From: Massilia sp. WG5
Lineage (GTDB): Bacteria > Pseudomonadota > Gammaproteobacteria > Burkholderiales > Burkholderiaceae_D
DNA length: 64,000 nt
Direction of reading: 5' to 3'
Assembly: GCF_001412595.2 (NCBI RefSeq)
Contig: NZ_CP012640.2
Location: 2,542,001 to 2,606,000 of the forward strand
The notes under the pieces were generated by a model. It searched no databases and had not been told where the DNA came from. It saw only the letters and a program-made list of their open reading frames with translations. This document shows, in pieces, positions 1-38,541 of this stretch. The position numbers and the translations under genes are program-made. Numbering within the stretch: position 1 is the first letter of the stretch; every line of letters begins with the position of its first letter.

Positions 1-832
1 CGTCGGCGTCTTGTCCGGGCTCGCCTAGTTTCGAGCGTACCCTTTCAATCTGCTTCTGACGGTAGTTGTACTCGGTCGAGGTTCTTTTCTTATCCCCTTT
101 CTCATGTGTCCCAATTAGTCCTGCCACGAACTCATCGAGTTCGTGAAGGAAGATGTTACACAGGATAGGAGATACGATTGAGCCTTGGGGTGTACCGACG
201 ACACTGTCTACGGGTGTTTTGAACTCGTAGTAGCCTGCCGTTAGTGCTTTCCTAATCAGGTTTATGAATCTTTCATCCTTGATCCTACGACGCAGGATGT
301 TGATTAGGATGTCGTGGTCAATACAATCGAAGGCAGCCTTAACATCGCCTTCAATGATCCACGTTACTCCGCTCCAGTTGTTGCGGATAGACTTTAACGC
401 TGTGTGGCAGCCTCGCTTGGCTCTGAAGCCATGACTGTCGTCGCTGAAACTGCTCCCATAGGGGCTGTCGTACACAGCTTCGAGGATCATTCTCATGACC
501 TCTTGTACGATCTTGTCCCGAGGAGGAGCGATACCTAGCGGACGGGTTTTACCATTTGCCTTGGGAATGTGAACACGTCGAGCACGGGAGAACTGGAAAG
601 ACTCGTCCTTGATGTTCGATATGATCCTCTCAATGGTCCTCAGTGAGAATTCATCGAGTGTAGTCCCGTCGGGACCTGGCGTCATGTTTCCGGGGACGCT
701 TTTGAGCTTCTGATACGCCACGACATACAAGTCGGTTTTGTACATTAGCCTATATAGGTCTCCGTTGACCCAACCGGGTTTGGCGTTGAGTTTACGTAGT
801 GTTTCTAGTCGTTCCAGGTCTTTATTACTCAT
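1..832 (-). CDS. ltrA: Group II intron-encoded reverse transcriptase/maturase (partial, C-terminus outside window)
   Basis: The frame opens at ATG 832 and runs without a stop to the window edge (about 277 residues). The visible N-terminal RT domain is typical of group II maturases: [14 protein letters not shown] near residue 50, [20 protein letters not shown] (finger region), [13 protein letters not shown], the first catalytic block [13 protein letters not shown], and [20 protein letters not shown]. The YADD catalytic block, domain X and any endonuclease domain would lie beyond position 1. The protein would reverse-transcribe the intron for homing and act as maturase in its splicing. Codons such as CTA, AGG and ATA are frequent here but rare in neighbouring genes, in keeping with recent transfer. 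An AAAGG lies about 12 bases before the ATG. The symbol is by analogy with LtrA. Confidence 0.93.
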
Positions 833-918
833 CCGAGTAAACCTTTCGCTTCTATCGACTTCCTTGCGTCTTCGCTTTCCCTTGCCCCAGAGTTACCTAG
901 GCTGTATTGGGTGTACTT

Positions 919-995
919 TGGTAGGCCGTGCAGGACTTGAACCTGCGACCCCGGAATTATGAGTTCCTTGCTCTGACCAGCTGAGCTAACGGCCC
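919..995 (-). tRNA. tRNA with CAU anticodon, probably tRNA-Ile2, carried inside the intron
   Basis: A complete 77-nt cloverleaf on the minus strand, with encoded CCA (919-921). The acceptor stem is GGGCCGT/ACGGCCT with one G-U at 1-72 and discriminator A73. The D-arm is GCTC/GAGC. The anticodon arm is AGGAA-CTCATAA-TTCCG, with only the 27-43 pair mismatched, and gives anticodon CAT. The T-arm is GCAGG-TTCAAGT-CCTGC. A CAT anticodon can be tRNA-Met or tRNA-Ile2, in which lysidine synthetase TilS modifies C34. Acceptor pairs C4-G69 and C5-G68, reported as TilS determinants, are present here and in the interrupted host tRNA. The window's two tRNA-Met genes have GGTGATA instead. Ile2 identity is therefore favoured but not proven. 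It lies 87 bases upstream of the reverse transcriptase, on the same strand. No clear promoter of its own is seen, so it may rely on the promoter before the split tRNA. Confidence 0.93.
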
Positions 996-1531
996 AACAT
1001 TTCTACCACAACGGGTACTATCGAATAGTCCGTTGCCGAATCGTTCCACTACGTTGCCGTAACTTCATCGATTCTACCTGAGTTGCATATCTCAACTCAA
1101 GCTTCTAGGGATTACTCCCCGTAGGCAATCCCGTAGTTAACACATTCTCGCGGTCCAGTTTTAGGTGTCCCATACATCCTTCTCATCCCTACTTGGGTGC
1201 CGGCTGACGAAGAAGCTTGAGAGGTATTCATAATCGCTACCGCTCATTCGTCAAGATGGACGTAAATATGCGTGTCCACCAGTTGCTCGTGATGCTCCGG
1301 TCGGATTAGGTTTCAGACAATCAGCCTTCACCATGACTGGCCTAACTGACAGACCTGTTAAGCTTGCATATTAGCTTTCGTCTGCCTTTTGACGGCATGC
1401 TGCAGTCCCCTCAAAGTTTCCTTTTCAGGTATCCTAGGGTTTACCTCCCTAGTAAGCCGCTGTTTTACCCACATTGCTTCAGTGGGGTGAAACTATTTTC
1501 ACAACGAGAATGCGCCCTATCTACGGCGCAC

Positions 1532-1572
1532 TTATGAGTCCGCTGCTCTAACCAGGCATGAGCTAGAGGCCC
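1532..1572 (-). tRNA. 5' half of a tRNA-Ile2(CAU) gene split by the intron
   Basis: From G1 at 1572 the minus strand reads acceptor GGGCCTC, TA, D-arm GCTC..GAGC, A26, anticodon stem 5' strand GCGGA and the full loop CTCATAA with anticodon CAT, ending at A38 (1532). The next base begins the intron. No 3' half (expected to start TCCGC or TCCGT and end with an acceptor strand matching GGGCCTC) exists anywhere in the window. It should lie left of position 1, after the intron. The gene follows rpoD on the same strand and has a strong promoter at 1651-1680. If the intron splices accurately the tRNA can be restored. If not, it is inactive. Confidence 0.88.
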
Positions 1573-1691: not shown

Positions 1692-3962
1692 TTAGCTGCT
1701 CCCCTCGAGGAAACTCTTCAGCTTGTCAGAGCGCGACGGATGGCGCAGCTTGCGCAGGGCCTTGGCTTCGATCTGGCGGATGCGCTCGCGGGTGACGTCG
1801 AACTGCTTGCCGACTTCTTCCAGCGTGTGGTCGGTCGACATCTCGATGCCGAAGCGCATGCGCAGGACTTTCGCCTCGCGCGGGGTCAGCGAATCCAGCA
1901 CGTCCTTCACCACGCCGCGCATCGAGGCATGCAGGGCCGCGTCGGACGGGGCCAGCGTGTTGTTGTCCTCGATGAAGTCGCCGAGATGCGAATCGTCGTC
2001 GTCGCCGATCGGGGTTTCCATCGAAATCGGCTCTTTCGCGATCTTCATGATCTTCCGGATTTTGTCTTCCGGCATTTCCATCTTGATCGCGAGGGTCGCC
2101 GGATCGGGCTCGGCGCCGGTCTCCTGCAGGATCTGGCGCGAGATCCGGTTCATCTTGTTGATCGTTTCGATCATGTGCACCGGAATACGGATCGTGCGCG
2201 CCTGGTCCGCGATCGAACGGGTGATGGCCTGGCGGATCCACCACGTCGCATAGGTCGAGAATTTATAGCCGCGACGGTATTCGAACTTGTCCACCGCCTT
2301 CATCAGGCCGATATTGCCTTCCTGGATCAGGTCGAGGAATTGCAGGCCGCGATTGGTGTACTTCTTCGCGATCGAGATCACCAGACGCAGGTTGGCCTCG
2401 GTCATTTCGCGCTTGGCCTTGCGCGCCTTCATTTCACCGGCCGCCATCTGGCGGTTGATGTTGCGCAGGTCCGGCAGCGGCAGCACGACGCGCGCTTGCA
2501 GGTCGATCAGGCGTTGCTGCAGTTCCTTGATCGTCGGGATGTTGCGGCCGAGGATGGCGCTGTAGGCGTGGCCGGCGTTTACTTCGCCGTCGACCCACTC
2601 GAGATTCGTCTCGTTGCCCGGGAAGACCTTGATGAAGTGGGCGCGCGGCATGCCGCAGCGGTTCACGGCCACGTCCAGGATCTGCTTTTCGATGTGGCGC
2701 ACTTCGTCGACCTGGCCGCGCAGGGTGTCGCACAGCTTCTCGACGACCTTGGCGGTGAAGCGGATGCCCAGCAGTTCGGCGGAGATCGCTTCCTGGGCCT
2801 TGACGTAACCGTCCGAGTTATAGCCCTGCTTCTCGTAGGCCTTGCGCATCTTGTCGAACTGCTGTTCGATCGTGTGGAACTTGTCGAGGGCGGAATTCTT
2901 CAGCTGCTCGAGCTGCTCGGCGGAATAGCCGGCCGCGCCGGAACTTGCGCTGGCTTCTTCTTCCTCTTCCTCTTCTTCCTCTTCCTCCCCTTCGTCCTCC
3001 TCGTCGTCATCGGTGGACGTCGGCGCGACCGCGGTCGGCGAGGTGTCCTCGGATTCGTTCGGATCGACCATGCCGTCGACGATCTCGTCGATCTTGATCT
3101 CGTCGCTCTCGATGCGGCGCGAGGCGTCGATGATCTCGGCGATCGTCACCGGACAGGCGGAGATCGCCTGGATCATGTCGCGCAGGCCGTCCTCGATGCG
3201 CTTGGCGATCTCGATCTCGCCTTCGCGGGTCAGCAGCTCGACCGACCCCATTTCGCGCATGTACATGCGGACCGGGTCGGTGGTGCGGCCAAAGTCGGAG
3301 TCGACGGTCGACAGGGCGGCTTCCGCGGCGGCTTCGGCTTCGTCGTCGCTGGTGACGTTCGGGACGTTGTCGGACAGCAGCAGGGTCTCGGCATCGGGCG
3401 CATGCTCGTAGACGGCAATGCCCATGTCGTTGAAGGTGCCGATGATGCCTTCGATCGCTTCCGGATCGACGATATTGTCCGGCAGGTGGTCGTTGATCTC
3501 GGAATAGGTCAGGAAGCCACGCTCCTTGCCCGACTTGATCAGGGCCTTGAGCTTGTTGCGGCGAACTTCGATCTCTTCTTCGCTCGCTTCAGTATCCGAC
3601 GAGAAGGCGTCTTTCAGCAGCGCTTTTTCCTTGGCCTTGCGGTCCTTGGCCTTGGCCTTGTCCGCAGCCTTCAGTTCGGCGCGCTCGACCGCATTCAATG
3701 CGGCGACTTCGTCGTTTTCGGGCGTGAATTCCTTGGGCTTGCGACCGCGCCGGCCGGGTACCTTGACGGCCGGCAGCACGTAGCCCGACGTGTCGATCGC
3801 GGCAAGTGCTTCCGCGTCGGTCGTCTGGCTCACAGGCGCAACACCCGCGACGCGGGCTTCCGCCTTGTCTTGAGAATTGTCCGCCTTGGCGGACATCCTG
3901 GTGGATTTGGTAGCCACTTTGGTTTCGGGTTTCTTGGTTGGCACAGGCGCTTTCGAAGTCAC
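1692..3962 (-). CDS. rpoD: RNA polymerase sigma factor RpoD (sigma-70)
   Basis: Primary sigma factor directing RNA polymerase to housekeeping promoters. The protein has 756 residues, longer than the 613 of E. coli. A Lys/Ala-rich N-terminal extension of about 130 residues contains an AT-hook-like RRGRKPKEF (71-79). Region 1.1 covers about 135-200, region 1.2 begins near [11 protein letters not shown] (229-239), and the non-conserved region contains an acidic run of Asp/Glu at 318-336. Region 2 (about 523-600) has [20 protein letters not shown] and the -10-reading [14 protein letters not shown]. Region 4.2 (about 710-745) has the helix-turn-helix [20 protein letters not shown]. It is the last gene of the rpsU-yqeY-dnaG-rpoD unit and has its own extended -10 promoter upstream. 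Confidence 0.98.
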
Positions 3963-4109
3963 GACGACTACTTTACTAGGTTAAAGATAAAGTTTTGTTA
4001 CCCGTATTTCTTACCCGCATCTATTACGACACTTTTGCCGCGCTAACTGAAACTCCAGGCCCGCTCTGAGACGAAAAAGCGTTTCAAAGCTTGCAATAGT
4101 TAGCGTTTT

Positions 4110-4118
4110 ATTATAGCA
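4110..4118 (-). promoter_or_regulatory. Extended -10 promoter of rpoD
   Basis: The minus strand reads TGCTATAAT, a perfect -10 box with the TGn extension. A weak TGGAAA lies 16 bases upstream. The predicted start is near 4103, giving a leader of about 140 bases before the rpoD ATG at 3962. It lies in the dnaG-rpoD gap and would allow rpoD transcription independent of rpsU. Confidence 0.6.
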
Positions 4119-4147
4119 CGCACCCCCATATTTTCCAGTCAAGAACA

Positions 4148-4163
4148 CCCGTGTCGCCACGGG
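4148..4163 (-). terminator. Weak hairpin after dnaG
   Basis: CCCGTG/CACGGG with a 4-base loop, starting about 7 bases after the dnaG stop codon. The run of T after it on the minus strand is broken (TGTTCTT), so it may be an attenuator or mRNA-stabilising hairpin rather than a full terminator. Confidence 0.35.
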
Positions 4164-4169
4164 CACACT

Positions 4170-5972
4170 TCAGGCAAATTTCGCTGGGGTTTCGTTGGCG
4201 GCTTCCCGCATCAAGAGGTCCTGCTGTGCTGTGATTTCGCGATAGCGGGCACTTACCTGATCTGGGGTCAGCCCAGAAGAAAACAACTGGTTCAACTCCT
4301 GTTTTAAGACATCCATCTTGATTTGCCGCACAGCACTAGTGAGCCAGACGCGATCCTGTTCAATATCCGATTCGGGTTCCGACGCGATCTCCGCGATCAG
4401 GTGGTCATACTCGGTGCTGGACTCCTTCAATTGCTGGGACAACGCGGCGAAGCTGGCGTTCGCGCCCAGGGCCTGGGCTTGTGCGATCAGCCAGCGCAAC
4501 CGGTCCGCCGGCTCGGCGCCGAAGTGGTCGAAAGCGCGCAGCGCGCCCTCGTCCAGGCCCAGGGCCAGCGAGGGATGGCCCACCAGCATGCGCATGATCT
4601 GCAGCTCCAGCCCGACCGGCTCCGGCCGGCCCTGGCGCGGCGGCGCCTTGCGCGCAACCGACACTGGCTTGGACAATTCGAACAAGGCCTCGATCTCCGC
4701 CGGCGTCGACTGGGTCATGCTGGCCAGACCGCGCACGATCTGCAGGCGCAGCGCGGTCGGGGCCATCGCCTGCAGCAGCGGCTTGGCCTCGAACTGGGCA
4801 TGCGCCCTGCCCTCCGGCGTGTCGAGCTCGTGCTCCTGCGTCACTTCGCGCAGCAGGAAGGAGGACAGCGGCATCGCCTCGTCGATCTCGCGGGCGAAGG
4901 CGTCGCCGCCGAATTCGCGCACATAGCTGTCCGGGTCATGTTCCTGCGGCAAGAACAGGAACTTGATGGTCTTGTCGTCCGACACCTGCGGCAGGCAGGC
5001 TTCGAGCGCGCGGCGGGCGGCGCGGCGGCCGGCCTTGTCGCCGTCGAAGCTGAAGATCACATTGTCGGTCTGGCGCAGCAGCTTTTGCACGTGGGTGCTG
5101 GTGCAGGCCGTGCCGAGCGTCGCCACCGCCTGCGGGAAGCCGAGCTGGGCGAGGGCGACCACATCCATATAGCCTTCCGTCACCAGCACATAGCCGGCGT
5201 CGCGGATCGGCTGGCGCGCCTCGAACAGGCCGTACAGTTCCTGTCCCTTATTGAACAGCGGGGTTTCCGGCGAGTTCAGGTATTTCGGTTCGCCGCCATC
5301 CATCACGCGGCCGCCGAAGCCGATCACCTGGCCCTTGGTGTTCCGGATCGGGAACATCACGCGCTCGCGGAAGCGGTCGTAGCGTTTCTTGTTGCCGCCA
5401 TCCTCGTCGACCTTGTCGATGACGAGGCCGGACTCGACCAGCGCAAGCGCGTCGTAGTCCTTGAAGACCGAGCGCAGGTTGTCCCAGCCAGGAGGTGCGT
5501 AACCCATGCCGAAGCGCGCCGCCACCTCGCCCGTCAGGCCGCGGCCCTTCAGGTAGGCGATCGCATTCGGCGCCTGGCGCAGCTGGGCGCGGTAGAAGTC
5601 GCAGGCTTGCTGCAGCGCCTCGGTCAGCGCCATCGACTGGGCCTGCTGGGCGGCGCGCTGGGCCGGCGGGATCTTGTCGTCGTCGTTCGGCACGACCATG
5701 CCGACGCCCTGGGCCAGGTCCTTGACCGCGTCGACGAAGCCCATGCCCGAGTATTCGATCAGGAAGCCGATGGCGGTGCCGTGCGCGCCGCAGCCGAAGC
5801 AGTGATAGAACTGCTTGGTCGGGCTCACCGTGAAGCTGGGCGACTTTTCATTGTGAAAAGGGCACAGGCCCATGTAGTTGGCGCCGCCCTTCTTCAGCTG
5901 GACGTAGCGGCCAACCACATCGACGATATCAATGCGGTTGAGCAGATCGGTAATGAATGATTGCGGAATCAC
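4170..5972 (-). CDS. dnaG: DNA primase DnaG
   Basis: Synthesises RNA primers at the replication fork in partnership with DnaB helicase. The 600 residues show the normal order. An N-terminal zinc-binding domain has C37, H40, C58 and C61 (LCPFHNEKSPSF, YHCFGCGAHG). The catalytic core follows, with the Toprim acidic residues in VTEGYMD (E266, D270) and FSFDGDKAG (D310, D312). A C-terminal helicase-binding domain of about 150 residues completes it. Length matches the family. It lies between yqeY and rpoD in the conserved macromolecular-synthesis operon. Confidence 0.98.
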   Translation of the reverse strand: MIPQSFITDLLNRIDIVDVVGRYVQLKKGGANYMGLCPFHNEKSPSFTVSPTKQFYHCFGCGAHGTAIGFLIEYSGMGFVDAVKDLAQGVGMVVPNDDDKIPPAQRAAQQAQSMALTEALQQACDFYRAQLRQAPNAIAYLKGRGLTGEVAARFGMGYAPPGWDNLRSVFKDYDALALVESGLVIDKVDEDGGNKKRYDRFRERVMFPIRNTKGQVIGFGGRVMDGGEPKYLNSPETPLFNKGQELYGLFEARQPIRDAGYVLVTEGYMDVVALAQLGFPQAVATLGTACTSTHVQKLLRQTDNVIFSFDGDKAGRRAARRALEACLPQVSDDKTIKFLFLPQEHDPDSYVREFGGDAFAREIDEAMPLSSFLLREVTQEHELDTPEGRAHAQFEAKPLLQAMAPTALRLQIVRGLASMTQSTPAEIEALFELSKPVSVARKAPPRQGRPEPVGLELQIMRMLVGHPSLALGLDEGALRAFDHFGAEPADRLRWLIAQAQALGANASFAALSQQLKESSTEYDHLIAEIASEPESDIEQDRVWLTSAVRQIKMDVLKQELNQLFSSGLTPDQVSARYREITAQQDLLMREAANETPAKFA

Positions 5973-38324: not shown

Positions 38325-38401
38325 GGTGATATAGCTCAGTTGGTTAGAGCACAGCACTCATAATGCTGGGGTCGGTGGTTCAAGTCCACCTATCACCACC
38401 A
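38325..38401 (+). tRNA. tRNA-Met(CAU), elongator type, copy 1
   Basis: A 77-nt cloverleaf with encoded CCA. Acceptor GGTGATA/TATCACC, D-arm GCTC/GAGC, anticodon arm CAGCA-CTCATAA-TGCTG, T-arm GGTGG-TTCAAGT-CCACC. The 1-72 pair is normal, so it is not an initiator. Positions 4-5 are G-A rather than the C-C of tRNA-Ile2. Confidence 0.96.
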
Positions 38402-38414
38402 AATTTCAAGCGAG

Positions 38415-38450
38415 ATGGCTTGGCTTGCAAAGGCTGAGCCATTTTGTTTT
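38415..38450 (+). terminator. Hairpin between the two tRNA-Met genes
   Basis: ATGGCT/AGCCAT with additional inner pairs around loop GCA, followed by TTTTGTTTT. It could end part of the transcription after the first tRNA or mark a processing site. Confidence 0.5.
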
Positions 38451-38464
38451 AGTACCGTTTAGCT

Positions 38465-38541
38465 GGTGATATAGCTCAGCTGGTTAGAGCACAGCACTCA
38501 TAATGCTGGGGTCGGTGGTTCAAGTCCACCTATCACCACCA
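38465..38541 (+). tRNA. tRNA-Met(CAU), elongator type, copy 2
   Basis: Differs from copy 1 at a single D-loop base (AGCTGGTTA instead of AGTTGGTTA). It has a complete cloverleaf and encoded CCA. No separate promoter is evident in the 63-base gap, so it is probably read through from the promoter at 38284. Confidence 0.96.

Follow-up and report, generated by a model that had tools for sequence, protein, structure and literature searches.

A group II intron in the genome of Massilia sp. WG5 interrupts the only tRNA-Ile2(CAU) gene that we found there, and carries within itself a complete tRNA with the same anticodon; in all likelihood this cargo tRNA supplies the decoding of AUA and makes the insertion tolerable, the intron belonging to a lineage that matches both its EBS1 and its cargo to the gene it enters. 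Poor splicing in a housekeeping gene would harm the host, and the lineage appears to dodge this cost by bringing the broken gene's product along, which would account for the interruption of an essential tRNA gene that has no spare. Here the idea of a compensatory cargo carried by a retroelement can be put to the test, and a guide (EBS1) and an antidote (the tRNA) are seen to change together.

The window, as we call the whole 64,000-nucleotide stretch of DNA that was analysed, holds one part of the element, the remainder extending past its first base. On the minus strand, rpoD (3962-1692), the upstream neighbour of the split tRNA, is followed by the 5' half of the host tRNA-Ile2(CAU), comprising tRNA positions 1-38 (1572-1532; 41 nt, ending in CTCATAA), and this in turn by GTGCGCC from 1531 down. 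The insertion falls between positions 38 and 39, in the anticodon loop. The 3' part of the intron and the 3' half of the tRNA were read from the genome sequence to the left of window base 1, in an extract termed L001 (G000:C1:2536001-2546000), where the window position equals the L001 position minus 6000; here the intron ends in CCTAC and is followed directly by TCCGTTGGTGCCCGGTTCGACTCCGGGGAGGCCTACCA, the tRNA 3' half of 38 nt including the CCA. With boundaries at GTGCG on the 5' side and AC on the 3' side, the exons join to the native tRNA. Of the 41 same-genus genomes searched, 18 contain an intact gene identical to the joined halves (79 nt), the 5' half in the window being identical to bases 1-41 of that gene in all 18, and a single full-length match of at least 92% occurs in 38 of the 41. 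The remaining three are the window's own genome and that of Massilia sp. YIM B02763 (G306), in both of which the gene is split, and G1216, an assembly 84% complete with only partial matches among those listed. The intact genes represent empty sites, and they indicate that the unusual D loop of the joined halves is the genus's own; since the joined halves equal the native gene, the intron has inserted cleanly, and its splicing would give back the native tRNA exactly. The split Ile2 gene was reported by neither ARAGORN nor Rfam in our scans, and a genome of this kind annotated in the same way would seem to be without tRNA-Ile2. Chance or an assembly artefact was rejected as an explanation, given the same arrangement in Massilia sp. 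YIM B02763, in Cupriavidus lacunae and on three plasmids, all sequenced separately, and an artefact is further disfavoured by the position of the window on a 6.0-Mb contig.

The whole intron measures 2711 nt (G000:C1:2540821-2543531, minus strand), its 5' portion occupying 1531-1 of the window. Downstream of the 5' end lie EBS1 (TTATGA, 1233-1228), complementary to the IBS1 TCATAA, and the cargo tRNA(CAU) with its CCA (995-919; L001 6995-6919), which is found by ARAGORN and by Rfam (64.1 bits, E 1.3e-11) and sits upstream of the reverse transcriptase (RT) frame, in the region of domain IV. The intron-encoded protein, with RT, maturase and HNH domains, starts at 832 and runs off the window at base 1 with only its N-terminal part inside; in the genome the frame is complete (621 aa, L001 6832-4967) and includes a YADD motif. 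RVT_1 and Intron_maturas2 score above their Pfam cut-offs and an AI2M-like HNH just exceeds its own (23.2 against 23), while NCBIfam TIGR04416 scores 242.5 bits, under its cut-off of 300. Domains V and VI match Rfam Intron_gpII at L001 4928-4821 with 51.4 bits against a cut-off of 40. The initial annotation, made from the letters of the window, had described a tRNA 5' half ending at position 38 and running into GTGCG, an EBS1 complementary to the anticodon loop, a complete CAU tRNA with CCA between that half and a group II RT, and had predicted domains V and VI and the tRNA 3' half beyond base 1; each of these is borne out by the sequence and the searches given here. A search for complements yielded no consistent EBS2-IBS2 pairing, and two weak promoter consensus matches occur in 1 kb, where shuffling leads one to expect 0.5.

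The same arrangement behind rpoD is found in Massilia sp. YIM B02763 (L002; RT 99% identical) and in Cupriavidus lacunae (L003; RT 87%), the L003 sequence stopping short of domain V and the tRNA 3' half. In its 5' half the split gene does not vary among the three genomes. The Cupriavidus cargo, by comparison with that of the window, is identical at 64 of 77 positions and differs at 13, with paired changes at 6-67 and 28-42, and the constancy of the 5' half beside these paired changes implies that the cargo follows the intron and keeps its tRNA structure. Behind the split tRNA-Ile2 of L002, from 6012 onwards, lies a gene which we take to be HsdM-like, and tRNA bases 31-79 occur once more about 10 kb from the split gene (G306:C4:159585-159633); together these perhaps mark an integrative island located at this tRNA gene in G306.

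The design recurs at other tRNA genes. A second intron in G306 (L007, RT about 52% identical) splits tRNA-Ser(UGA) at 38/39 and carries a tRNA-Ser(UGA). Of the 12 genus genomes searched, 11 contain the intact Ser(UGA) gene at 100%, the twelfth being G306, with two halves and the cargo at 76%; DNA searches of G306 gave only halves of Ile2 and Ser(UGA) along with further hits that were incomplete or weaker, and in the case of Ser also the cargo. On a plasmid of Pseudomonas sp. FeN3W (L008) a tRNA-Leu(UAA) is split and a tRNA-Leu(UAA) carried, on a plasmid of P. silesiensis (L009) the same holds for Leu(UAG), and on a plasmid of the alphaproteobacterium Microvirga lotononidis (L012) a CAU tRNA is split and a CAU tRNA carried. 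The L012 target is a second kind of CAU tRNA, and its cargo is without C4-G69. In all five targets or lineages examined, on which the matching rule rests, the anticodon of the cargo is that of the split gene; the Pseudomonas and Microvirga cases were read from plasmids, and the counts of intact copies cover Massilia genomes. The cargo precedes the RT frame in the window's intron, L002, L003, L007 and L008 and follows it in L009 and L012. At the Microvirga locus (L012 1279-9120) group II introns are nested, the inner one, with its own RT, lying inside domain V of the outer, whose RT frame is interrupted by what is presumably a recombinase-like gene.

The guide changes with the target. In the window's intron, EBS1 forms six Watson-Crick pairs with TCATAA, anticodon included. 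In an alignment of seven introns EBS1 starts within columns 306-309, and each EBS1 pairs with the anticodon loop of its own split gene over 6 or 7 contiguous pairs (G.U counted), and thus contains the complement of the anticodon. Against the loops of the other targets the pairing is worse in all cases except one, the EBS1 of L008, for which the Ser(UGA) loop is a full match as well once a G.U pair is allowed. In the first 520 nt of each intron, 7-mers pairing over at least 6 bases number two in all in the window's intron and in L003, six in L009 and one each in L007, L008 and L012, the further ones in the first three arising by chance.

These observations lead us to propose the following mechanism. 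EBS1 would direct reverse splicing into the anticodon loop, and the host would lose its contiguous tRNA gene on insertion. The cargo would be co-transcribed with the intron or have its own promoter, and the ordinary tRNA-processing enzymes would free it to take over the decoding of AUA; splicing may add native tRNA, and the host would tolerate the insertion even if the 2.7-kb intron spliced poorly. From the sequence we infer that the cargo would be expressed, processed by RNase P, modified to lysidine, charged and able to complement the broken gene, and that the intron would splice and retrohome. Cargo and splicing probably compete, because excising the cargo breaks the intron RNA. The initial annotation had viewed the cargo as an antidote neutralising the cost of insertion, a reading that fits the present results and is strengthened by the independent insertions into Ser(UGA), Leu(UAA), Leu(UAG) and the second CAU tRNA, in every one of which the cargo has the anticodon of the target.

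In the pairs compared, the loop of the cargo is identical to that of the target, so something else must protect the cargo from its own intron. On the 5' side of the anticodon stem, one to three of the five positions differ between cargo and target, and these differences may be what protects the cargo. The broader picture would be of an anticodon-addressed lineage of retroelements, which switches target by changing EBS1 and cargo together, spares its cargo through the stem difference and makes its host dependent; we consider the chances of this being correct to be about even.

Of the alternatives, the one to survive best is that splicing restores enough of the host tRNA, the cargo being only a dose supplement or having another role for the element, such as an RNase P site that releases the intron RNA, or a primer for reverse transcription. 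The exons do join to exactly the native tRNA and the intron looks complete, and because the native tRNA would come from splicing alone, the host may be able to do without the cargo. Yet a role in processing or priming needs no match of anticodons, such as is seen throughout the five targets or lineages, and the Microvirga cargo still scores as a good tRNA (68.7 bits) though the RT frame and domain V of its intron are interrupted. We therefore regard this alternative as unlikely, and prefer the reading in which the cargo replaces the product of the broken gene.

How far cargo and tRNA target go together was followed through related introns by an ARAGORN control scan of 92 loci (L002-L004, L008-L096). 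tRNA genes are present in 7 of these, namely the split-tRNA loci L002, L003, L008, L009 and L010/L012 (one place), together with L085, where the tRNA is on the strand opposite to the RT. A domain V pattern occurs in 18 loci, to which the reading of ends by script is confined; the splice test of the script yields a tRNA for L002, L008 and L009, and the outer ends of L010 and L012, for which the script had taken domain V of the inner intron, were settled by hand. At the other 13 of the 18, the ends tested gave no tRNA at the splice junction, and there is no cargo tRNA. An RT tree (39 rows) has a branch, supported at 100/99, that sets the tRNA-type introns on one side. That side has 25 rows and also holds other relatives, as well as L013 and L093, which carry no tRNA and, judged by eye, do not lie in tRNA genes; tRNA targeting may have had a single origin with later loss in these two. 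The intron of L013 (viral contig IMGVR_UViG_2648501160_000003) appears to interrupt a transposase gene that we take to be TnpB-like. That of L093 (about 2990-5450, on Cupriavidus necator plasmid p1), whose RT matches in two pieces, ends shortly upstream of a frame which, from its N-terminus, we assume to be IscB-like, and perhaps lies within the guide RNA region of this frame.

This survey bears on a further alternative, that the cargo is a functionless passenger captured by chance. Mobile DNA often inserts at tRNA genes, and L009 is situated in a tRNA array. Such a capture is nonetheless very improbable when the cargo anticodon is that of the target in each case seen, when the cargo is conserved between Massilia and Cupriavidus with paired changes, and when those 13 relatives are without one.

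Searches for the RT detected it in 2 of 62 genomes of the genus and 2 of 392 of the family, and in its own genome alone among 399 of the order and 398 of the phylum; with the RT of L007 as query the window's genome again stood alone among 262 of the class, and none of 329 genomes in the family of G507 gave a match (the genome sets of these searches overlap). Mobility of the intron would fit this patchy occurrence and the empty sites. A search of genome contigs returned three loci, two of them of this type. Among viral contigs a single-sequence query found none, and an alignment query found 80 loci, many incomplete, none with a tRNA on the RT strand and one, L085, with a tRNA on the opposite strand; phage records gave six matches at 35-36% identity. 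The junction patterns CTCATAA|GTGCGCC (61 occurrences) and CTTGAAA|GTGCGCC (at least 120) included, by a simple motif test, 0 of 181 with a tRNA-like 5' half. In a protein search 8000 candidates were scored, 2724 of them with E up to 1e-60, and relatives among the best 120 of these include proteins of Burkholderia contaminans, Halomonas, Vibrio and other Pseudomonas.

The identity of the cargo itself is best approached through the other CAU tRNAs of the genome. Among 85 tRNA genes found, five have this anticodon: two initiator tRNA-Met, two elongator tRNA-Met and the cargo. The elongator genes lie outside the element at 38325-38541 on the plus strand (starts 38325 and 38465), in tandem and nearly identical. 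Several intact tRNA-Ile2 genes elsewhere would have weighed against the antidote reading, and there are none among the 85. ARAGORN labels every CAU tRNA here as Met, and our assignment to Ile2 is based on the acceptor pairs 4-69 and 5-68, supported for the split gene by its identity to the single full-length match in relatives. The cargo and the host Ile2 have C4-G69 and C5-G68 in common, where the elongator genes have G4-C69 and A5-U68. A73 and U12-A23 are common to the cargo and the elongator tRNA-Met genes, and C29-G41 is missing from cargo and host Ile2 alike, so that only the acceptor pairs separate Ile2 from elongator Met. The cargo carries an A27.G43 mismatch, and its 64 bits are below the 74-75 of the elongator genes but similar to the scores of many host tRNAs. 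Pair 5-68 has a role for TilS, and tilS is present in the genome (172.8 bits, cut-off 93.6). On these grounds we take the cargo to be a tRNA-Ile2, the sole contiguous one found in this genome. That it might instead be an elongator tRNA-Met, replacing nothing, is hardly tenable despite the ARAGORN label and an overall identity about equal to elongator Met (74-75%) and to host Ile2 (75-76%), as its acceptor pairs are those of the host Ile2 and unlike those of the elongator genes, and as the elements given in the consulted portion of PMC9976931 include A73, C4-G69, U12-A23 and C29-G41 for bacterial Ile and U4-A69 and A5-U68 for Met. A recent copying of the cargo from the host gene was also considered and rejected, cargo and split gene being only 73-82% identical in the five pairs compared.

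We know of no replacement tRNA for group I introns in bacterial tRNA genes, nor of a cargo tRNA for the chloroplast trnK intron; the pre-tRNA-Ile of Azoarcus has the anticodon CAU. The closest functional parallel, as far as the available part of that account goes, is the tRNA-dependent lysogeny of phages (Guerrero-Bustamante and Hatfull 2024, PMC10865867), in which a phage integrase acts at attB, whereas here a group II intron, with its ribozyme and RT, sits in an anticodon loop chosen by EBS1. Unlike in that system, the gene broken here might still be restored by splicing. No tyrosine integrase with att sites was found in the element, which is bounded by ribozyme splice sites and has an RT as its large frame. 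In domains V and VI, GTGCG and AC ends, an RT/maturase/HNH protein and EBS1-IBS1 pairing it resembles the mobile bacterial group II introns described in the sections consulted of a review (Mob DNA 2015, PMC4424553), according to which most such introns sit outside housekeeping genes, and in which the chloroplast trnK intron is the single tRNA mention. That intron, with MatK, is likewise a group II intron with a maturase in an essential tRNA gene, but is organellar and has lost RT function (PMC4424553, same sections), unlike the element here. The Azoarcus group I intron also lies in a tRNA-Ile gene and belongs to another ribozyme class (PMC3984707, as excerpted). Among the papers listed by searches of the open-licence PMC literature, no title or beginning of an abstract described a tRNA cargo in a bacterial group II intron.

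Two further sets of tRNAs resemble the Cupriavidus cargo. On Cupriavidus oxalaticus plasmid NZ_CP038639.1 (L354 3001-3077) a CAU tRNA is 89% like it (80 nt) and has flanks resembling the intron sequence next to the cargo (75.7% against the window's intron across 144 nt); Rfam finds no intron within 3 kb, nor is an RT annotated at this place, and this tRNA is perhaps an orphaned cargo that has outlived its intron. The Cupriavidus cargo itself (L003 3835-3911) has 86-88% full-length identity to tRNAs of Vibrio phage D69 and several Acinetobacter phages, these being the best rows of 550 records.
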